This document shows, piece after piece, positions 1,093 through 10,191 of a stretch of DNA of 12,244 nucleotides. The stretch is from positions 1 through 12,244 of the forward strand of contig CAKTCY010000060.1 of the NCBI GenBank assembly GCA_934540955.1, read 5' to 3'. Source of the DNA: an uncultured Faecalibacterium sp. GTDB taxonomy: Bacteria > Bacillota > Clostridia > Oscillospirales > Ruminococcaceae. The stretch's first letter is position 1. Each line of letters opens with the position of its first letter. The position numbers and the translations under genes were made by a program. The notes under the pieces are model-generated. The model worked only from the letters and a program-made list of their open reading frames with translations, did no database searches and was not told the origin of the DNA.

Positions 1093-1380
1093 ATGTTTGA
1101 AGACAAGACTCTGGTCTGCAAGGACTGCGGTAAGGAATTTGTTTGGACTGCCGGCGAGCAGGAGTTCTACGCTTCTCGCGGCTTCGAGAACCAGCCCCAG
1201 CGCTGCAAGCCCTGCCGTGACGCCCGCAAGAACGGCGGCGCACGCAGCAACAGCGGTGAGCGTCAGATGTTCGATGCTGTCTGCGCAGCTTGCGGCAAGG
1301 CTTGCAAGGTTCCCTTCCAGCCCCGTGAGGACCGTCCGGTCTACTGCTCTGACTGCTTCGCTCGCATGAAGCAGAACTAA
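1093..1380 (+). CDS. Small double zinc-ribbon protein (zf-trcl / CxxC-x17-CxxC type)
   Basis: This 95-residue protein has four CxxC pairs in two modules. The first is C9/C12 with C38/C41, within the pattern TLVCKDCGKEF...FYASRGF...RCKPCR typical of the 'probable zinc-ribbon domain' zf-trcl. The second is C64/C67 with C85/C88, spaced exactly 17 residues apart, as in the CxxC-x17-CxxC family, and ends RPVYCSDCF. Each module should bind one zinc ion. The cellular role of these families is not established; nucleic-acid or protein binding is the usual guess. The linker 42-60 is polar and probably flexible. The start is fixed by GAGGAG at 1079-1084. The gene is monocistronic: its own consensus promoter lies upstream and a strong terminator begins 30 bases after the stop. 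Basic residues surround the first ribbon, which would suit RNA binding. Confidence 0.93.
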   Translation: MFEDKTLVCKDCGKEFVWTAGEQEFYASRGFENQPQRCKPCRDARKNGGARSNSGERQMFDAVCAACGKACKVPFQPREDRPVYCSDCFARMKQN

Positions 1381-1467: not shown

Positions 1468-2646
1468 TCACAGGCCGCAGATGGCCTCGTAGGTGCGGGC
1501 GCAGTTCTGGGTATCCCGCAGCGGGAAAAAGGCTGCCACCCGGGCTTTGTATTCCGGCGGCATCTGCATCCCATTCTGCAAGGCGGTTTCCAGCGCCTGC
1601 AAAAGCGCGTCCTCGGTGGTGCACACCGGGCCAAAGCCATCCCGTGCAAAATCAAAATACCCTTTTTGGTAGTGATACCGCTGATAATCTTCTTCGTCGA
1701 ACTGGTAGTACACTTCCGGCTTTTCCAGATAGGCCACATCAAAAAAGACACTGGAATGATCTGTGATGAGCAGCGCGCAATCCAGCAGCAGCTGCTGCAC
1801 ATCGTACATGGAGCTATCGGCCAGCACCACCCGCTCCGACCGTGCATGGAACCGGCTCAGGTGCTTTTGCATCTCAATATGCGGGTAAAAGACCAGCGTA
1901 TAGCCGTACCGCTCCAGCAGCGCATCAAGGCGGGCGCTGTTCAGCAGGCTTTCAAAGGCCTTGTAGTACGGCGTATCCAGAAAAGCTTCGCCCTCCGGGT
2001 AGTGAGAGCCCCGCCATGTGGGCATGAGCAGGATCATCTTTTGGCAGGGGGCCTGCCCGGCCTGCAAAAGATGATCCCAGCGTGCCAGCCCCAGATAGCG
2101 CGTCACCTCCGGCGCAAAGCCGTAGGTATCCCGGATGTACTCATATTCCGGCTTTGCGCCGCAGGCAAAGAGATCCAGATACAGATTTTCCCGGTGCATC
2201 CACTGCATCTCGCTCATAATGACACCGTGCTGCAAAAACACCTGTTTGCCCCGGGCGCGGATGCCCTTCGCGGCAAGGTGATAATGCACCATCAGGTCCG
2301 GTGCACAGGGCTGCACATGGGTGCCTACCAGATAATCGGCGCAGTAGTACAGCAGATAATGCCGGAAGCTGCCCCGCTGCACCGCACCGCCCAGTGCGGC
2401 GATCTTTGCAGCGTCCGGGCTGTCGGCGGTGATGACATAATAGGCGCGCAACTCCGGGTGCTGCGTGCGCAGATACCGGTAGAACCAGTAGCCGTTGTCC
2501 CGGGCATCGGTGCCGCGCTCGCCCACCAGCCAGATACCCCGGTACGCCGGGCTGAGGGCACGGCACACCACCCCCAGCAGCTTGCACAGCAGCATGGCCA
2601 GCAGTTCCTTCAGGTAGCACAGCGCCCGCAGAAGCTTATGTTTCAT
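1468..2646 (-). CDS. CDP-glycerol glycerophosphotransferase family protein (TagB/TagF-like)
   Basis: This 392-residue protein belongs to the family that transfers phosphoglycerol (or phosphoribitol) from a CDP-activated donor to a lipid-linked sugar or growing polymer at the inner face of the membrane. Seen directly: FLQHGV at 137-142 and YPH at 254-256, which carry the two histidines known to matter in TagF; MPTWRG at 208-213; and TDHSSVFFDVAYLEKP at 295-310, the donor-binding signature. Residues 1-30 are basic and hydrophobic, consistent with membrane association. The length matches the single-domain TagB type rather than the much longer TagF polymerase, so a single transfer or side-chain decoration is more likely than long poly(glycerol phosphate) synthesis. 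It is the last gene of the minus-strand operon, 16 bases after the preceding GT2 gene, with AAAGGAG upstream of the ATG. The exact donor and acceptor cannot be read from sequence. Confidence 0.9.
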   Translation of the reverse strand: MKHKLLRALCYLKELLAMLLCKLLGVVCRALSPAYRGIWLVGERGTDARDNGYWFYRYLRTQHPELRAYYVITADSPDAAKIAALGGAVQRGSFRHYLLYYCADYLVGTHVQPCAPDLMVHYHLAAKGIRARGKQVFLQHGVIMSEMQWMHRENLYLDLFACGAKPEYEYIRDTYGFAPEVTRYLGLARWDHLLQAGQAPCQKMILLMPTWRGSHYPEGEAFLDTPYYKAFESLLNSARLDALLERYGYTLVFYPHIEMQKHLSRFHARSERVVLADSSMYDVQQLLLDCALLITDHSSVFFDVAYLEKPEVYYQFDEEDYQRYHYQKGYFDFARDGFGPVCTTEDALLQALETALQNGMQMPPEYKARVAAFFPLRDTQNCARTYEAICGL

Positions 2647-2662: not shown

Positions 2663-3676
2663 TCAGTTTTTGCGATTTGCGCCCGAGAGCAGCAGCACCG
2701 CGCGGCATAGCCGCAGCTTGAGCAGCAGCAGCTTTACCCGGTCGTTCCGGCTGTGCATAGTGCACAGCCGGGTGCTGCGCACCGCTGTGCGCACCCGGGG
2801 CTTTTGCAGGGTGCTGCGCAGCCATGCGCTCTGCTCGGCGAGGGAAAGCGGGCTGCTGCCAAGGTTCTTGATTCCCATCATCAGGTCGCGGATCGTGCAG
2901 TAGCTCGCCTTTGCGCGGTGCATGGGGCTGTTCTGCAAGCCCCATGCGGCAACGGTGTCCCACACTGCATCACTGAGATAAAAGTTATCCTCCAGCCGCT
3001 CCGGGTGGTAGCGGTTGGACAGGCTGCCCCGCCGGGCAGCGGTATAGTGATACAGCGGCTTTTCCAGCACCACCAGACAGCCGGGGTCCTGCCGGTAGAA
3101 CGCCACATAGAACAGCCCGTCCTCCCCCAGCTGATGGCAGGGAAAGCGCAGATGATGCTGCTCCAGAAACGCCCGGCGGAACAGCTTGTTGATGACCAGA
3201 TACGAGGACGCCGTCTCGTCGAAATGCTCCTTAAAGGGCTCGCCCCGGTACACACCGGAGAGGGTGCTGCCGCTGGTCTGTGTGTGCAGCAGCCGGTCAT
3301 TTTCATCGTAGCTGTCCAGATACAGCCCGAACTGCACGCAGTCTGCGTCCGCATCCCGGGCGGCACGGTACAGCACTTCTGCCGCATCTGGCTCTACCCA
3401 GTCGTCCGGATCCAGAAAGAAGATATACTCGCCCCGGGCGGCATCCAGACCCGCATTGCGGGCAGCAGCTACCCCGCCGTTGGGCTGGTCGATGAAGCGA
3501 AACCGCGCGTCCTCGGCAGCAGCCTGCTCACACAGCGCGGCGCTGCCGTCCTTGGAGCCATCGTTGATAAGGATGGCCTCAAAGTCGGTCAGGGTCTGCG
3601 CCCGCAGTGAGCGCAGCGCCCGGGGCAGCAGGCGTTCCACATTATAAATAGGCACTATAAACGAAATGCAGGGCAT
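2663..3676 (-). CDS. Family 2 glycosyltransferase (GT-A fold)
   Basis: The 337-residue protein starts with the canonical GT2 domain: FIVPIYNVE at 6-14, NDGSKDGS at 38-45 for nucleotide binding, the segment GGVAAARNAGLDAARGEYI leading to DPDDW at 89-93, which is the metal-binding DxD motif, and LGEDGLF further on with the likely catalytic acidic pair. It should transfer a sugar from a nucleotide-sugar to a glycolipid intermediate at the cytoplasmic face of the membrane. The last roughly 90 residues are basic and arginine/leucine-rich without a clear transmembrane segment. Donor and linkage are unknown. The start is supported by GGAGAAGGAG eight bases before the ATG. It lies 66 bases downstream of the GT4 gene, the largest gap inside the operon. 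Confidence 0.93.
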   Translation of the reverse strand: MPCISFIVPIYNVERLLPRALRSLRAQTLTDFEAILINDGSKDGSAALCEQAAAEDARFRFIDQPNGGVAAARNAGLDAARGEYIFFLDPDDWVEPDAAEVLYRAARDADADCVQFGLYLDSYDENDRLLHTQTSGSTLSGVYRGEPFKEHFDETASSYLVINKLFRRAFLEQHHLRFPCHQLGEDGLFYVAFYRQDPGCLVVLEKPLYHYTAARRGSLSNRYHPERLEDNFYLSDAVWDTVAAWGLQNSPMHRAKASYCTIRDLMMGIKNLGSSPLSLAEQSAWLRSTLQKPRVRTAVRSTRLCTMHSRNDRVKLLLLKLRLCRAVLLLSGANRKN

Positions 3677-3742: not shown

Positions 3743-4852
3743 TTACCTTCCACTCATTTGCAGGTACTGCTGCTGCAGGCGCTCTGCCTCAAGGCCGATG
3801 TCGTAGCCCGCCTGCCGGATCAGTTCTGCCCCGGCAGAGCGGTCACAGGTCTGCTGCAGCATCCGCTGCAAGCCTGCCGCCCAGTCTGCGTTGCTGGCAG
3901 AAAGCGGGATGCGAACGGCATTCGTTGAAAGCAGCACCTCGTCCGTTACGGCGTCCGAGAACACGCACCCCAGCCCGGCGGCCTGCGCCTCGATGCCCAC
4001 CACCGGCAGACCCTCAAAGCGGGAGGGCATGACAAAGAGATCCATCATCTGGTACCAGTCGGCCACATTGCTTTGCAGCCCGGCAAACAGCACATGGTCT
4101 GCAATGCCCAGCTCCTGCGCCTGTGCGCGGACAGCCTGCTCCAGCTCGCCCACCCCGATGAGCACCAGCGCCGCCCGGGGCTCCAGCTGCAAAAAGGCGG
4201 CAAAAATGTGCAGCAGCCGCTCATGGTTCTTTTGCACATTAAAGCGCCCCACATGACCCAGCACCACCCGGTCCTGCAGCCCATAGCGGGCGCGCATTTC
4301 CGCGCGGACGGCGGGGGAAAACCGGAAGGTCTCCGGCTCAATGGCGTTGTGCAGCACCCTGCCCCGGCGCTCCCAGTTTTTTTGTCCGAAAAAATAAATG
4401 CCCGCATCCCGTCCGCAGGCCCACAGGTCAGTGGCGGCACCGGGCAGCAGCTGCTTGCAGAGCATCTTCAGCGGCCACTTGTAGTCCCGGATGATCCGGG
4501 TGTTGTGGGCGTGGGCAATGCGCACGGGCAGTCCGGCCTTCTCGGCGCCCTTCAGGGCATACAGTCCCATGGCCTCGTTGTGGGCGTGCAGGATGCAGAT
4601 GCGGGGATCTGCGGCCACGGTCTGCTGCACAAAGCGCAGGTACGCCGGGTAGTGCAACGGGTCAAGCCCCGGACTTTGGTAGATGTGCCCGCCCATCCGG
4701 CGGATCTCGTCATCGTAGTCGCCGGGCTTTTTCTTGTTGACGATAAAATCGAACTGGACCTTTTCGCGGTCGATATGCCGGTAGTAGTTCATCAGCATGG
4801 TCTCGATGCCGGCGCGGTCCATATTGCTGACCGAATGCAGCACTCGTATCAT
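3743..4852 (-). CDS. Family 4 glycosyltransferase (GT-B fold, EpsF-like)
   Basis: This 369-residue retaining glycosyltransferase has an N-terminal acceptor domain opening with IRVLHSVSNMDRAGIETMLMNYY (residues 2-24; the MxxGGxE-like loop reads MDRAGIE here). The C-terminal nucleotide-sugar domain has GHVGRFNVQKNHE at 199-211, LIGVGE near 231-236 and the E-x7-E motif at E280 and E288 (EGLPVVGIE). ILHAHN at 87-92 is the conserved acceptor-side histidine segment. It resembles the exopolysaccharide transferases annotated as EpsF; the sugar is not predictable. The ribosome site GGGAGGAG at 4859-4866 lies six bases before the ATG, and the gene begins 15 bases after the upstream GT2 gene, so the two are probably co-translated. 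Confidence 0.93.
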   Translation of the reverse strand: MIRVLHSVSNMDRAGIETMLMNYYRHIDREKVQFDFIVNKKKPGDYDDEIRRMGGHIYQSPGLDPLHYPAYLRFVQQTVAADPRICILHAHNEAMGLYALKGAEKAGLPVRIAHAHNTRIIRDYKWPLKMLCKQLLPGAATDLWACGRDAGIYFFGQKNWERRGRVLHNAIEPETFRFSPAVRAEMRARYGLQDRVVLGHVGRFNVQKNHERLLHIFAAFLQLEPRAALVLIGVGELEQAVRAQAQELGIADHVLFAGLQSNVADWYQMMDLFVMPSRFEGLPVVGIEAQAAGLGCVFSDAVTDEVLLSTNAVRIPLSASNADWAAGLQRMLQQTCDRSAGAELIRQAGYDIGLEAERLQQQYLQMSGR

Positions 4853-4867
4853 GGGGTACTCCTCCCA

Positions 4868-6067
4868 TTATAATAGTTGGAAGCTTCTGCCGTAGCGGCA
4901 CCACAGCCCAAAGTCCTGCCGGCGCAGCGCCCGGGCGCCCCAGCGGGCACGGCGGGGCAGTGTGCCCTCCTGCGGCAGAGCGCGGGCATACAGTGCGCAG
5001 CACAGCCGAAAAACGGCCTGCTGCGTCTCCTGCGGCAGGCCGGATATGGTGGCATAGCAAAAGGCCGAAAGCTGCAAGGTCAGGCTGCAGCGGTACAGCG
5101 CATCGTGGGGCAGGCCCAGCGCAGCATCCTGCGCCAGCAGCTGCTCCATGATCCAGTAGCTCTGCACGGCAGCAGGGCGGTGCTGGCTTGAGGCGGTAAG
5201 CCCCTTGGGGTTTTTGCGCCACAGGTAGACCACCCCCGGCACCGAGGCCACTGTCTTGGCCTGACGGAACACCAGAAAATGAATAATGGTATCCTCAAAG
5301 CAGGTGTAGTAAGCCGGAAAGCGTATCCGCTCAAACAGCTCCCGCCGGTACACCTTGCCCCATGGCATCCCGGGCAGCTCGAACCGCTCCGGCGCGGCGG
5401 TGCCGGTATAAGCTGCCGCCGGGTAGCGCTGCACCGGGCCGTAGCTGCCATCGGTGTACAGGTATTGCCAGCCGCCCTGCACCACATCGGCATCAAGGCG
5501 CTGTGCAGCCTCCAGCAGGGTGCGGACGGCACCGGGCAGCAGCAGATCATCGCTGTCCACAAACATCAGCCAGCGTCCCACGGCGCGGCGCAGCCCTTCG
5601 TTGCGGGCGGCGGCGGCGCTGCGGGGTGCGCTGCAATTGCACAGCACCACCCCGGGCAGCGCCCGGTAGCGTTCCAGCACGGCGGCTGTGCCGTCGGTAG
5701 AATCGCTGTCCACCACGATCAGCTGCACGGTGCAGCCGGTCTCCTGCTGCAAAATGCTGTCCAGACAAGGGCCGATGGTGGCCTCGCCGTTATACACCGG
5801 CACGATGACCGAAAGGGTCACCGCCGGGTCCTGCGGCGGCAGCGGCGGGCAGATCTCCTCCGCTGCGGGCTTCGGGCACAGTGCTGCCAGCGCAGCACGG
5901 TCGGCCTGTGTGCTGTCCGGCAGCGGCGCACCGCTCCGGTGCAGCAGACGGTACAGCCCAAGGTCTGCATAGCCGCAGGCGGCAGCGCACACGGCGGCAG
6001 CGCCCGCCAGCAGGCGGCTGCGGGTGCGGCATTGGATCAGTTGATAGGCGCGTCGGTTGCGGATCAT
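4868..6067 (-). CDS. Family 2 glycosyltransferase with N-terminal extension
   Basis: This 399-residue protein has its GT2 domain displaced by about 80 residues. The domain shows LSVIVPVYNGEATIG at 85-99, VDSDSTDGT at 119-127 (DSDS in the place of the more usual NDGS), RNEGLRRAVGRWLMFVDSDD ending at 174 with the DxD motif at 171-174, and CFEDTIIHF further on as the probable catalytic acidic pair. The N-terminal extension is arginine-rich, then has an alanine-rich hydrophobic stretch at 18-31 (too short and cysteine-rich for a confident membrane span), then a proline-rich linker. The start is well supported: its ATG overlaps the TGA of the upstream gene (ATGA, 6064-6067) and AGAGGTGGAG precedes it. 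A later start would leave no good ribosome site, so I keep the extension. Substrate unknown; it presumably adds one sugar of the operon's glycopolymer. Confidence 0.9.
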   Translation of the reverse strand: MIRNRRAYQLIQCRTRSRLLAGAAAVCAAACGYADLGLYRLLHRSGAPLPDSTQADRAALAALCPKPAAEEICPPLPPQDPAVTLSVIVPVYNGEATIGPCLDSILQQETGCTVQLIVVDSDSTDGTAAVLERYRALPGVVLCNCSAPRSAAAARNEGLRRAVGRWLMFVDSDDLLLPGAVRTLLEAAQRLDADVVQGGWQYLYTDGSYGPVQRYPAAAYTGTAAPERFELPGMPWGKVYRRELFERIRFPAYYTCFEDTIIHFLVFRQAKTVASVPGVVYLWRKNPKGLTASSQHRPAAVQSYWIMEQLLAQDAALGLPHDALYRCSLTLQLSAFCYATISGLPQETQQAVFRLCCALYARALPQEGTLPRRARWGARALRRQDFGLWCRYGRSFQLL

Positions 6068-7908
6068 GCTCCACCTCTCTCAGTCCCGGCAGGCGTAAAG
6101 ACGGGAATATTCTCTTCTGCGATCAGAGCCATCTTTTTCTGCGCCGTGCGCACCAGCTCCCGCACATCGTAGATGTCATCCTCCGAGGAGGTCGCCCATG
6201 CGGCGGTAAACAGAATGGGGTACTCCGGGTTCAGCTTGTTGTACTCGTCCACCTGACCTTGCAGGATGCGGATCATGACCTCAGCCTTCCGGCTGCTGCA
6301 TTCGTCAAAGAAGGCAAGGAACTTGCCCACGCCATTGTAGCCCACCATGCCGTCGGTATCACCCATCAGCTGCAGCAGGCCGGAAAAGTCCTTCAGGATG
6401 CCGTCGCCTACATGGTAGCCGAAGCGGCGGCTCATCTCGGACAGGTTATCCAGCTGCAGGGCAAAGCAGGTATAATCCTCCGGCAGGATGCGGCTGACCA
6501 TGCCGGTGATATACACATTGAGCTTTTCGCGGTTGGGCAGGCCGGTCTTTTTATCCACATACAGCAGGTAATCCACGATATCGGAGATGCGGCCCAGCAG
6601 AACGGCACCGCAGCAGCCGATGACGAAGAACAGCACCAGCGCCAGCATCAGATACAGCTTGATGTTGATGGCGGCCGCCACCCGCACCGAGCTGATCATC
6701 TTCAGATAATCTGCGCTGATGTACAGGTTCAGCTCCTTGCTGCTGGTATTGATGATCTCGTAGTATTTTTTCAGCTCTGCCTCGTAGTCGTTGATCAGGC
6801 TTTCCATCTTGGCGTGCTGCTCGTCCGTGCCGCCAAAATCCACATTGCGGAAGCTTTGCAGGATCTCCTCCTGAAACTGCCGGTCGATCTCGCTGGCCGC
6901 GATCGTTCTATCCAGCGAGACCAGCTTCAGCACCAGCCCATCGTAGGTGGTCTGCGCCTTTTCGCCCGCGCCCTCCAGCTCGATGTTATTCAGGATGTAG
7001 TCCGAGGATACCACCTCGCCTCGGTCGGTAAAGTAGTTCTCCAGCAGGTCGGCGTTCTTGTACACATACTGGTCCGTCAGTCCCCACAGGCTGTCCCGCT
7101 GCCCGGCAGTCACCTGCTCGTTCTGCTTTGCAGTCTCGATGCTGTTGGCCAGATACTCCTGCAGCACTGTGCCGTCCCGCACCTGCGGACCGTTGAGCAC
7201 ATAGGCGTACAGCTCCGGGATGGTATATTTTTTAAAGTCCAAATAGATATCGCACAGGTCTGCATAGGTGTAGCCGGTGCGGGAGGAACGGAAGTCCGGG
7301 TAGTGCTCCTGCTTGCTCAGCAGGTAGCCGTGCATCTCAGTGGTATCATTTTCAAGAATACGGATGCACTCGTAGTAGTCGTAGCCGTTTTCCAGCAAGC
7401 CAGAGGAGGGGTTGAGGGAAAGCCTCTGCTCCACATACTTTTCCGTGTAGTAGGTGCAGTAGCTTTGAATGATGGCATCCAGCATATTGCGGGCGTAGCC
7501 CGCGCCCTGCGACCCGTCCACCACAAGGCTCACCTTGTAGGTATCGGGGAAATAGGTCACCTCTTCGCCCTTATCCAGCAATGCGTCATTGATGGTCTGC
7601 TGCTCCTCCGAGATCACCGGGGTCACCGAGATATTGGAGCGGATGGTGCTCAGCCGCCCGGAAGCCCCCAGCGCATCCATGGCCTGCGAGATGACGGTGG
7701 AGGAATAGATCTCGTTGACGTCCAGTTCACTGCCGTCCGGGGTGTAGCCGTTGGTGATGCCATCGTTGGTATAGCGGATGATGACCGATGCGGTGTACTG
7801 CTGCTTGCTGTCCGCATACAGATAGATGGCAGCCGCGCCTGCCAGCGACACCAGAAAGATCAGGATGCTGAAGCGCTTCAGATAGCGCAGGATCTCAAAC
7901 TTTTTCAT
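6064..7908 (-). CDS. Wzz-like polysaccharide co-polymerase fused to a degenerate GGDEF domain
   Basis: I place the start at the ATG at 7908 (614 residues). It overlaps the upstream stop as ATGA, like the next junction, and begins MKKFEILRYLKRF directly before the first membrane segment. An upstream ATG at 7953 would add 15 residues but has a poor ribosome site. Domains: transmembrane helix about 14-32; an extracytoplasmic Wzz-like region about 35-410 with helical, probably coiled-coil stretches; a second transmembrane helix about 415-438; then a cytoplasmic GGDEF-like domain about 450-600. That domain keeps DKKTGLPNR (452-460), LQLDN with D487 at the metal position and GYHVGDGIL, but its signature motif is GVGKF where GGDEF should be, and the RxxD inhibitory site is absent. 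Catalysis of c-di-GMP synthesis is therefore very unlikely. The Wzz part should regulate chain length or export of the polymer; the GGDEF-like part may sense a ligand or dimerise. Confidence 0.86.
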   Translation of the reverse strand: MKKFEILRYLKRFSILIFLVSLAGAAAIYLYADSKQQYTASVIIRYTNDGITNGYTPDGSELDVNEIYSSTVISQAMDALGASGRLSTIRSNISVTPVISEEQQTINDALLDKGEEVTYFPDTYKVSLVVDGSQGAGYARNMLDAIIQSYCTYYTEKYVEQRLSLNPSSGLLENGYDYYECIRILENDTTEMHGYLLSKQEHYPDFRSSRTGYTYADLCDIYLDFKKYTIPELYAYVLNGPQVRDGTVLQEYLANSIETAKQNEQVTAGQRDSLWGLTDQYVYKNADLLENYFTDRGEVVSSDYILNNIELEGAGEKAQTTYDGLVLKLVSLDRTIAASEIDRQFQEEILQSFRNVDFGGTDEQHAKMESLINDYEAELKKYYEIINTSSKELNLYISADYLKMISSVRVAAAINIKLYLMLALVLFFVIGCCGAVLLGRISDIVDYLLYVDKKTGLPNREKLNVYITGMVSRILPEDYTCFALQLDNLSEMSRRFGYHVGDGILKDFSGLLQLMGDTDGMVGYNGVGKFLAFFDECSSRKAEVMIRILQGQVDEYNKLNPEYPILFTAAWATSSEDDIYDVRELVRTAQKKMALIAEENIPVFTPAGTERGGA

Positions 7909-9203
7909 TTGCGGTGCCTTGCCTTTCTGTGTTTGCGCTGATGGAGCAGCCATGCGCCGCCCAGCATGACGGCAACGGACTCCATCAGCGTCTTTTTCAG
8001 GCTCAGGCGCTGCAGGAAGGAGGCTGCACCATAGGTAAAGGTGATATAGTTCTGGGATTTATACTTGATGTACGCCTTGTCCAGTACAAACAGCTCCTCC
8101 GCGATCTCGTTGATGGCGGTCTCCAGCTTGTTCACCATAGCCTGTGCCTCGGCCAAGCGCGGCTGTCCGGCATCCAGCTCCCGGATCTTTTGGATCACAT
8201 AATTGGTGCTCACGATCTCGGACTGGTAGTCGGTGGCATCGGACAGTGAGCTGTCCGCCGCCCGGGCCAGCGCGTCCATGGCGGTCTTGGTGCGGGACAT
8301 ATAATATTCGCTGGCCTCATCCACGGTAGGGATCATCATGATGGAGGTCATGGATTTTTCGTAGAGCGAAATGCCGTTTTTGTCGGCATCGTAATAGGCC
8401 AGCTCCTTGCGCATGGCAATATCGTCGATCTTGTTCTTATATTCCAGAATGCTGGTCAGCATGGACGGGTCGCGGGCAACGCCGCCCTCAATGACAAAGG
8501 CCATGGCGTTGGGCAGGTCGTAAGCCACCAGATTGTTGATCTTTTTGCCCAGCGTCGTAAAGTTATTGGTGGTGATATCGGAGTTTGCATCGTCCGTAAA
8601 GCTTTTGTTTTCCTTCAGGCGGGTGTTCAGGTAACGGTTCAGCCCCTCAGCGCGCACCTCCAGCTCGTTCAGCCGCAGGTAAGGCTCGCAATCGGTAGTC
8701 ACCTCCAGCTTTTCCATGAGGATGCTCTGGTTATCGCAGTAGCTGCTCAGAAAGATCTCCCGGTAGGACTCGCACACGCTCTGCAAAAGATCCATGGGCT
8801 TGCGGTTGCCAAGCTCCAGCTTGCGGGTATTGATGGAGAGATAGTAGTTGGTGCTGATATACTCGCTGCCGTTGGCGCTGCCGGTGCTGTCCGGGGTCAG
8901 ATAGAGGCACTCCGCCAGCTGGGAGGCAGTCAGGCGATCCTGCAGACCCACCCGCCGGATGGCGCGCTCCATCACCTCGTCCGACACGATCTCGTAGGCG
9001 TTGAAGCGGGTCTTGTTGGGGTTCATGCCCAGCGCCGCCTCGGAGTAGTTGAAGGAGATGCTTGCGGTGGCGCTGTCTGCACTTTTGAAATAGTGGAACA
9101 GCCCGAACAGACAGCACAAGGTCAGCAGGCAGAGAAACAGGCGGTATTTATTTGTCCAGATATGGCGCAGCGCCTGTTTGATCTTTTCTTTGATGTCATC
9201 CAT
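7905..9203 (-). CDS. Wzz-like polysaccharide co-polymerase / chain-length regulator
   Basis: This 432-residue membrane protein has the two-helix topology of polysaccharide co-polymerases. A basic cytoplasmic N terminus is followed by a transmembrane helix at 21-39. A long extracytoplasmic region follows that is rich in charged helices with coiled-coil character (for example 290-380, with repeated L/E/K patterns). A weak second membrane segment spans about 404-421, and a strongly basic tail reads HQRKHRKARHRK. The short ISFNYSE segment after the first helix corresponds to the beta strand seen in Wzz proteins after TM1. No Walker motif or tyrosine-rich tail is present, so there is no fused BY-kinase. 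The ribosome site AAAAGGG lies nine bases before the ATG. Its stop overlaps the start of the GGDEF-fused paralogue-like gene (ATGA, 7905-7908), so the two are probably made in fixed ratio and may assemble together. Assignment to Wzz is by topology and partial sequence pattern. Confidence 0.78.
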   Translation of the reverse strand: MDDIKEKIKQALRHIWTNKYRLFLCLLTLCCLFGLFHYFKSADSATASISFNYSEAALGMNPNKTRFNAYEIVSDEVMERAIRRVGLQDRLTASQLAECLYLTPDSTGSANGSEYISTNYYLSINTRKLELGNRKPMDLLQSVCESYREIFLSSYCDNQSILMEKLEVTTDCEPYLRLNELEVRAEGLNRYLNTRLKENKSFTDDANSDITTNNFTTLGKKINNLVAYDLPNAMAFVIEGGVARDPSMLTSILEYKNKIDDIAMRKELAYYDADKNGISLYEKSMTSIMMIPTVDEASEYYMSRTKTAMDALARAADSSLSDATDYQSEIVSTNYVIQKIRELDAGQPRLAEAQAMVNKLETAINEIAEELFVLDKAYIKYKSQNYITFTYGAASFLQRLSLKKTLMESVAVMLGGAWLLHQRKHRKARHRK

Positions 9204-9249: not shown

Positions 9250-10191
9250 TTAGTCGATATCAATGACCGAAAGCTCCGGCACGTTGTTGATGCGGGGTGC
9301 CCAGCTGGAATCGCCCAGTCCCCGGCTTACGATGAAGGTGGCGTTGTTGGCAAGCGTGTAGCTGCCCCCGGCATAGTCGGGCAGGAAGCCCTCCTCGGCA
9401 CTGTAAAGCGGGCCGAGCTTCGGCAGGCGGACGATGCCGCCGTGGGTGTGCCCGGCCAGCCCCAGCTCAAAGGAATAGTTTTCCAGCTCCTCGGTAAAAT
9501 AGGTGGGGATGTGTGCCAGACAGATGCGCAGATCGTAGTCCGTCTGCTGCTCCGCGCTGTCCATAAAGGCGCTGGCACCGTAATTGTAAAAGTCCTTCGG
9601 CTCGCCCTCCACGCCCAGAATGCTGATGACATTGTCGTGGACGGTATAGCGCGCTTCCTCATTGCGCAGGATGGTCACCCCGGTGGCGGTGAACCTGTCC
9701 ACCAGCTCCCGGTCATTATCCAGAAAATACAGCTCGTCCTCGTGATTGCCCAGCACCCCGCACACCGGCGCGATGTCGCACAGCTGGCGGCACAGGGAAA
9801 GCATATTGTCGTAATTGGAGCCTTCGCCGTAGGTCACAAGGTCGCCGCCCAGCAGGATCAGATCCGGGGCAAGGCCGCGGATATCCTGCACCAGCTCGCA
9901 GTTGTCCTGCCCGTACTCCCGCAGATGCACATCGGTCAGAAAAACGACCCGGCAGCTCTGGGTCAGCTTGCGGGAATGCACCTGATAAAACTCTGCCGTA
10001 TAGTGGGTGCGGTTATAGCAGATGTTCTGCCACAGCACCCCGCCTAGCAGGGCGAGCAGAGCAATAAAGATCAGCAGGGTCAGCAGCATCTGCTTCCAGC
10101 GGGGTGCTGACGTTCGTGCACTGCTGCCGCTCTGCGTGTGCCTGCTGCTGTGCGCAGAGCCTTTTCCGTGCTTTGATTTGATAACGGCCAC
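9250..10191 (-). CDS. Membrane-anchored calcineurin-like metallophosphoesterase (YkuE/YaeI-like)
   Basis: The 313-residue protein carries all motifs of a two-metal phosphoesterase: TDVH at 86-89, GGD at 115-117, GNHED at 148-152, AH at 226-227 and GHTH at 247-250. The first 34 residues are basic and serine-rich, followed by one transmembrane helix at about 35-54. The positive-inside rule places the catalytic domain outside the cell. It could hydrolyse a phosphomonoester or diester in wall polymers or lipid carriers; the substrate is not predictable. It is the first gene of the operon, 46 bases before the first co-polymerase gene. The start is uncertain: the frame begins at a GTG (10191), where an AAAGGA sequence sits almost against the codon, too close for a normal ribosome site. 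ATG codon 35 would remove the basic cytoplasmic tail. Confidence 0.92.
   Translation of the reverse strand: MAVIKSKHGKGSAHSSRHTQSGSSARTSAPRWKQMLLTLLIFIALLALLGGVLWQNICYNRTHYTAEFYQVHSRKLTQSCRVVFLTDVHLREYGQDNCELVQDIRGLAPDLILLGGDLVTYGEGSNYDNMLSLCRQLCDIAPVCGVLGNHEDELYFLDNDRELVDRFTATGVTILRNEEARYTVHDNVISILGVEGEPKDFYNYGASAFMDSAEQQTDYDLRICLAHIPTYFTEELENYSFELGLAGHTHGGIVRLPKLGPLYSAEEGFLPDYAGGSYTLANNATFIVSRGLGDSSWAPRINNVPELSVIDID

Follow-up and report, generated by a model that had tools for sequence, protein, structure and literature searches.

A 12,244-nucleotide stretch of DNA from an uncultured Faecalibacterium species (contig CAKTCY010000060.1; hereafter the window, meaning the whole stretch analysed) encodes a 614-residue polysaccharide co-polymerase (PCP), PCP-B, with a C-terminal GGDEF-like domain (6064..7908, minus strand; open reading frame, Pfam and structure prediction). 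We propose, at a probability of about one half and on the basis of sequence comparison, that this non-catalytic domain links a PCP of the Wzy pathway to cyclic di-GMP (c-di-GMP) signalling by a mode other than the inhibitory site (I-site). Our computations gave two folds in one polypeptide, loss of catalytic residues throughout the family and constraint on the domain. They also revealed an EAL domain in the same slot of another clade, and clustering of GGDEF and EAL genes around the locus in one clade.

The co-polymerase and its GGDEF-like domain

The GGDEF-like domain spans residues 444-600 (6109..6579, minus strand). Pfam matches GGDEF at residues 450-593 (E = 5.8e-10, above cut-off), and structure prediction gives a well-predicted GGDEF fold at residues 449-601, after the second helix, which is the position of the kinase in Wzc. 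The bacterial tyrosine kinase (BY-kinase) of PCP-2a proteins is not present at the C-terminus of PCP-B, where the predicted structure has the GGDEF fold in that slot. A preliminary description of this DNA, made from the letters alone, had placed the reading frame correctly on the minus strand and had seen a PCP two-helix module followed by a GGDEF-like domain; the predicted helices (residues 14-34 and 416-448) and the predicted fold agree with it.

The co-polymerase part comprises a first transmembrane helix (residues 14-34; 7807..7869, minus strand; predicted helix, with topology inferred from the PCP fold and the hydropathy of relatives), an extracytoplasmic PCP domain (residues 35-415; 6664..7806, minus strand; structure predicted separately, with PDB matches) and a second transmembrane helix (residues 416-438; 6595..6663, minus strand; predicted helix and conservation). 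The best PDB matches of the predicted ectodomain were Wzc, KpsMT-KpsE and WzzE entries; the assignments of both folds rest on the families among the fold matches listed. Pfam Wzz matched residues 5-50 at 19.4 bits, under the 25.5 cut-off, marking a sequence-divergent member. In its predicted structure, a large Wzz/Wzc-fold ectodomain between two transmembrane helices, PCP-B is a polysaccharide co-polymerase, its ectodomain being Wzc/WzzE-like.

We compared the GGDEF-like domain with 14 intact GGDEF domains from the same genomes, using PleD residue numbers and the roles that we take those residues to have. The motif DKKTGLPNR (residues 452-460; 6529..6555, minus strand) keeps the conserved D, T, N and R, and D344 is retained as Asp502. 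Gln485 (6454..6456, minus strand) replaces the metal-binding Asp, D327; Ser stands at both K332 and N335, Gly at D/E370, Lys at the catalytic E371 and Ala at K442, around which the alignment is loose. GVGKF (residues 526-530; 6319..6333, minus strand) replaces GG(D/E)EF inside a family motif, YNGxGxF. The alignment bears out the earlier reading of DxxTGLPNR, GVGKF and a missing RxxD. The description's claim that the LD metal position is kept fails, since the Asp it took, Asp487, aligns with the second Asp of DxD and not with the metal-binding first Asp. Its view of a catalytically dead domain stands: judged from these residues, with GVGKF for GGDEF and Gln485 for the metal Asp, the domain cannot be a cyclase. 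An active diguanylate cyclase was rejected as a candidate; the GGDEF fold is there, but the catalytic Glu and metal Asp are absent in the window.

The residue losses extend across 38 sequences, comprising the window and 37 fused relatives. (This set differs from the 37 GGDEF-like rows of the tree described below: L009, a duplicate of L016, P0023 and L125 lie outside it, and L010 is absent from the tree.) The catalytic Glu occurs in 0/38, D/E370 in 2, the Asp of D327 in 17, K332 in 2, K442 in 1, N335 in 31 and D344 in 36; L125, with the signature GSDQF, likewise lacks the catalytic Glu. At the canonical RxG the family has YNG (Y in 36/38, N in 37/38 and G, the canonical residue, in 35/38), so that a conserved non-GGDEF signature, which the preliminary description had thought possible, is present. 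Among 18 non-redundant members, R440, D443 and L475 were invariant and R583 was found in 17. The residues conserved in the family but not in intact domains lie in the juxtamembrane helix (R440 and D443, within a family-conserved GRxxD at residues 439-443 directly after the second helix) and in the YNG turn.

Homologues with the PCP and GGDEF-like architecture are numerous, and the architecture is therefore not due to chance. Of 835 homologues found, 120 close ones were listed; GG(D/E)EF occurred in none of the 120, and YN(G/S)xGKF or SNGAGQI in 119, the exception being P0014 (533 residues), which did not match the pattern. SNGAGQI was found in eight homologues among the matches listed (P0021-P0027 and P0029). 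Three of these variants, checked against the standard form P0004, were 99.1% identical over the first 460 residues and only 38.3% over residues 461-600; by this comparison, their cytoplasmic domain has been exchanged for another, very different GGDEF-like domain that also lacks the signature. Five Faecalibacterium genes, compared in ten pairs, gave dN/dS values of 0.085-0.159 for the domain and 0.077-0.143 for the helices and ectodomain (0.35-1.9 for the last 16 residues, where defined, in 9/10 pairs). On these ratios, the Faecalibacterium GGDEF-like domains are under purifying selection.

Some homologues are longer. L125 (1489-4140, plus strand) has a PCP with a GGDEF-like domain followed by an extra tail of about 300 residues, compositionally biased by eye. 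P0003 and P0010 exceed 1,000 residues; in P0010, PCP-A, the gene product encoded next to PCP-B, and PCP-B share one open frame with an altered C-terminus, either a true fusion or a sequencing error.

Distribution, the EAL alternative and surrounding genes

When only the co-polymerase part served as the query, members of the family turned up in 22/394 genomes from the order and 50/391 from the class. By our count, the 50 class genomes comprise 20 with a GGDEF-like domain, 11 of EAL type, 18 with neither and 1 cut off; PCP-B with a fused c-di-GMP-type domain is thus not rare in the class. In a tree of 75 members, the 37 GGDEF-like sequences form one clade (support 100/100) and the 14 with an EAL domain another (100/99), leaving 24 with neither domain. 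The GGDEF-like count includes L110, a cut twin of L024 that our script had labelled 'none'. The window's PCP-B was not placed on the tree, on which it is represented by its close relatives L001, L002, L003 and L018. The tree is unrooted and is compatible with either two fusions or a replacement. The second Asp of DDFG is missing in 13/14 of the fused EAL domains and retained in L139. A genus sample gave a match in 7/31 genomes and none at that limit in 24; apart from the GGDEF-like fusions considered below, the matches were an EAL-type protein (G213) and an unrelated GGDEF-histidine kinase (G211). Open frames combining GGDEF with a histidine kinase (HisKA, HATPase_c) also occur at L040:1-2682 (minus strand; 1,085 residues) and L021:1-2667 (minus strand; 1,083 residues).

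In one GGDEF-like clade of 19 genomes, each with exactly two EAL matches, at least one EAL gene lay within 15 kb of PCP-B in 18/19 genomes (30/38 EAL genes in all). Uniform placement predicts 0.58 such genomes, an expectation that treats related genomes as if they were independent; both the 15 kb cut-off and the way the genomes were grouped were chosen after the positions had been seen. Proximity was counted in 47 genomes and in 4 from a set of 12 (the remaining 8 being among the 47), with E limits of 1e-5, 1e-20 and 1e-3; many contigs are short, and genes on separate contigs may in fact be close together. A check of EAL gene motifs with simple patterns read 21/30 loci, 14 of which have DDFG. 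When ten genomes of the clade were searched again for GGDEF, nine had one protein with an intact signature (open frame of about 770-840 residues). In 6/9 genomes its gene shares the strand of PCP-B and lies 10.5-11.4 kb upstream of it, and in 3/9 it is on another contig beside an EAL gene; the one such protein scanned, from L210, also has a dCache-like match below the family cut-off. A polysaccharide cluster flanked in this way by an intact-signature GGDEF protein and EAL genes (L265:479-2872, L267:1924-4230 and L166:17117-18481, all plus strand) looks like a self-contained c-di-GMP circuit.

GGDEF-like and EAL-type loci have their surroundings in common, mostly those of a Wzy-type locus. Wzy was detected in 18/18 GGDEF-like, 12/13 EAL-type and 0/12 no-fused-domain loci, the metallophosphoesterase in 18/18, 12/13 and 2/12, and PCP-A in 17/18, 13/13 and 5/12, respectively. 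The locus types are our own assignment. Because the window and GGDEF- and EAL-type loci supplied the queries for Wzy and the metallophosphoesterase, absence from no-fused-domain loci may reflect under-detection. Pfam scans of representative loci found an initiating sugar transferase, Wzy_C, glycosyltransferases and a pyruvyl transferase. A simple Walker-A pattern found a BY-kinase gene beside the PCPs in 0/43 loci of all types and none in the window, a search made uninformative by the lack of a positive control.

A proposed link to c-di-GMP and its alternatives

PCP-B would be the co-polymerase of a Wzy-type surface polysaccharide locus, with PCP-A as its partner. Its ectodomain and two helices would handle the growing chain, and a non-catalytic, GGDEF-derived regulatory domain would occupy the position of Wzc's tyrosine kinase, probably making chain length or output responsive to the c-di-GMP network. 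It might bind c-di-GMP at a non-standard site, independently of RxxD and of a functional active site, or serve as a dock for a diguanylate cyclase or phosphodiesterase. A signal received by this domain, in the place of phosphorylation in Wzc, would reach the ectodomain by way of helix 2. Any ligand, the direction of control and the locus type of the window strain are inferred; Faecalibacterium would use the domain as its relatives do. More tentatively, and at less than even odds, c-di-GMP-type domains may have entered the same signalling slot of Wzy-pathway co-polymerases twice in Faecalibacterium and its relatives, once as a dead GGDEF and once as an EAL. These co-polymerases would then be direct c-di-GMP effectors with a new, non-I-site form of sensing, such that a second messenger and not tyrosine phosphorylation sets surface-polymer length.

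Control of polymer synthesis by c-di-GMP is familiar from synthase systems (cellulose, Pel), and Faecalibacterium is a major gut commensal. If the proposed link to c-di-GMP is true, surface glycans in Faecalibacterium would come under direct post-translational control, and PCP-B would allow a test of how a signal is carried by a GGDEF fold lacking both active site and I-site.

Several observations weigh against the proposal. The canonical means of binding is missing: PCP-B has Asp and Gly at the two positions of RxxD, and the Asp of RxxD is absent family-wide (0/38). An I-site receptor of the PelD/PssE type was rejected on these two grounds. Even the N335 equivalent is lost: Ser takes its place in the window, in L131 and in four close Faecalibacterium relatives, with Asn retained in L020, which comes from a less closely related genome in the genus sample. 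The Pfam scan detected no Wzy gene in the window, though it holds four glycan-transferase genes. In the genus sample the locus is patchy, with a GGDEF-like fusion in 5/31 genomes (four close to the window, and G212). EAL genes lie within 15 kb in 3/14 other GGDEF-like genomes, 0/4 Faecalibacterium genomes and 3/14 genomes without a fused domain; proximity is infrequent outside one clade, and the clustering thus rests on that clade. The fused domain did not correlate with genomic GGDEF genes, which were matched in 69/71 genomes (the four Faecalibacterium genomes have 11 GGDEF and 2 EAL matches each); they also occur in 23/24 genomes without the fused domain, which therefore does not track the signal.

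A ligand-free module for dimerisation or docking that sets the geometry of the PCP oligomer seems unlikely to us, although GGDEF domains do dimerise, the low dN/dS is compatible with a structural role, and the family-specific residues of the juxtamembrane helix (R440, D443) and YNG turn would suit one. The alternative EAL domain, together with the nearby GGDEF and EAL genes of one clade, points instead to signalling.

Also improbable is a sensor of nucleotide status, in which a residual substrate pocket would take up a different guanine compound (GTP, GMP, ppGpp or a precursor-linked nucleotide) and the domain would inform the co-polymerase accordingly. The pattern of retention favours such a pocket: D344 and N335, which we take to be the guanine-contacting residues, persist in 36/38 and 31/38 sequences, whereas no sequence has the catalytic Glu, and D/E370 and K332 are missing from 36 each. 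By their entry titles, PDB structures include GGDEF proteins with GTP or ppGpp. However, the Asn is Ser in the window and its four close Faecalibacterium relatives, the metal Asp and Lys positions are lost too, and EAL domains in the same slot are left unexplained. The preliminary description had likewise raised the possibility that some other ligand is sensed; the comparisons, namely EAL in the same slot of 14 relatives and the GGDEF and EAL genes of one clade, point rather to c-di-GMP.

Decay of a once active cyclase, to which the loss of the catalytic Glu and metal Asp in the window might speak, is very improbable, as every fused homologue examined is degenerate, the domain is constrained and has its own conserved motif, and the domain exchanged in the eight listed homologues also lacks the signature. 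A single decayed copy, which the preliminary description would have accepted had close homologues kept an intact GGDEF, was rejected on the same lines: 37/37 fused relatives lack the catalytic Glu and most share the motif, the fused members placed on the tree form one clade, and the Faecalibacterium domains are under purifying selection. Neither outcome that the preliminary description had named as refuting its view was found, since the predicted fold is that of GGDEF and no fused homologue examined has an intact signature.

The window locus and known systems

The PCP-B frame runs from ATG (7908-7906) to TGA (6066-6064), 614 codons on the minus strand. A longer in-frame start (629 residues) is possible; MKKFEI or a close variant forms the N-terminus in 15/15 aligned sequences. 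Three named Faecalibacterium homologues share 90-91% identity with PCP-B over residues 1-599 or more. The start overlaps by 4 bases the stop (7907-7905) of the upstream gene, PCP-A (7905..9203, minus strand; 432 residues), a co-polymerase-like protein and conserved partner of PCP-B. PCP-A had no Pfam match above cut-off; same-place genes in L001, L002, L003 and L018 match the PCP profile, and its hydropathy profile has a single clear hydrophobic stretch close to the N-terminus, with a weaker one towards the C-terminus. Further upstream are a calcineurin-like metallophosphoesterase (9250..10191, minus strand; Pfam Metallophos, 4.1e-12), a conserved neighbour of the PCP pair, and lepA. Downstream, all on the minus strand and assigned by Pfam, follow a family 2 glycosyltransferase (4868..6067) whose start (6067) overlaps the PCP-B 3' end by 4 bases, a group 1 glycosyltransferase (3743..4852), a second family 2 glycosyltransferase (2663..3676) and a CDP-glycerol glycerophosphotransferase family protein (1468..2646). 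Open frames antisense to PCP-B (686 codons, 5881-7941, plus strand) and to lepA (642 codons) are probably by-products of base composition. The small protein encoded at 1093-1380 (plus strand) has two zinc fingers of the treble-clef type (zf_Tbcl, zf_Tbcl_2).

Dead GGDEF and EAL domains serve as regulators in proteins of the LapD/FimX type, in which the EAL domain is the ligand-binding part. The PCP-B domain resembles these in fold (matches 3pjw, 6pwk and 3hva), but LapD and FimX are not co-polymerases. Wzc, a PCP-2a with a BY-kinase, shares the ectodomain fold between two helices and a cytoplasmic regulatory domain after helix 2; PCP-B differs in having a GGDEF-like domain instead of the tyrosine kinase, and a second PCP gene, PCP-A, adjoining. 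In the portions available of a 2025 review of capsule chain length (PMC12220298), PCP-2a carries an intrinsic tyrosine kinase, PCP-2a/b are treated with the tyrosine kinase, and c-di-GMP is mentioned in connection with synthase systems; neither GGDEF nor EAL domain appears as a term in its main text, so far as those portions extend. The available parts of PMC7112194 and PMC4443731 name no such fusion, and a literature search with most subscription journals and preprints outside its reach returned no recognised description of a co-polymerase fused to GGDEF or EAL.

Among degenerate GGDEF proteins of polysaccharide systems, PssE of Listeria (signature DKDDA) is a receptor required for a Firmicute exopolysaccharide, but it binds c-di-GMP at the I-site by RxxD, and nothing in the available part of its description marks it as a co-polymerase (PMC4125290). 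PelD of the Pel system (B. cereus, P. aeruginosa) is, like PCP-B, a membrane protein of a polysaccharide system with a degenerate GGDEF domain; as far as the source is available, it binds c-di-GMP by RxxD, contains a GAF domain as well and belongs to a system of the synthase type (PMC7112168). PCP-B, in contrast, lacks RxxD, and the PCP that bears its domain has relatives in loci of the Wzy type.
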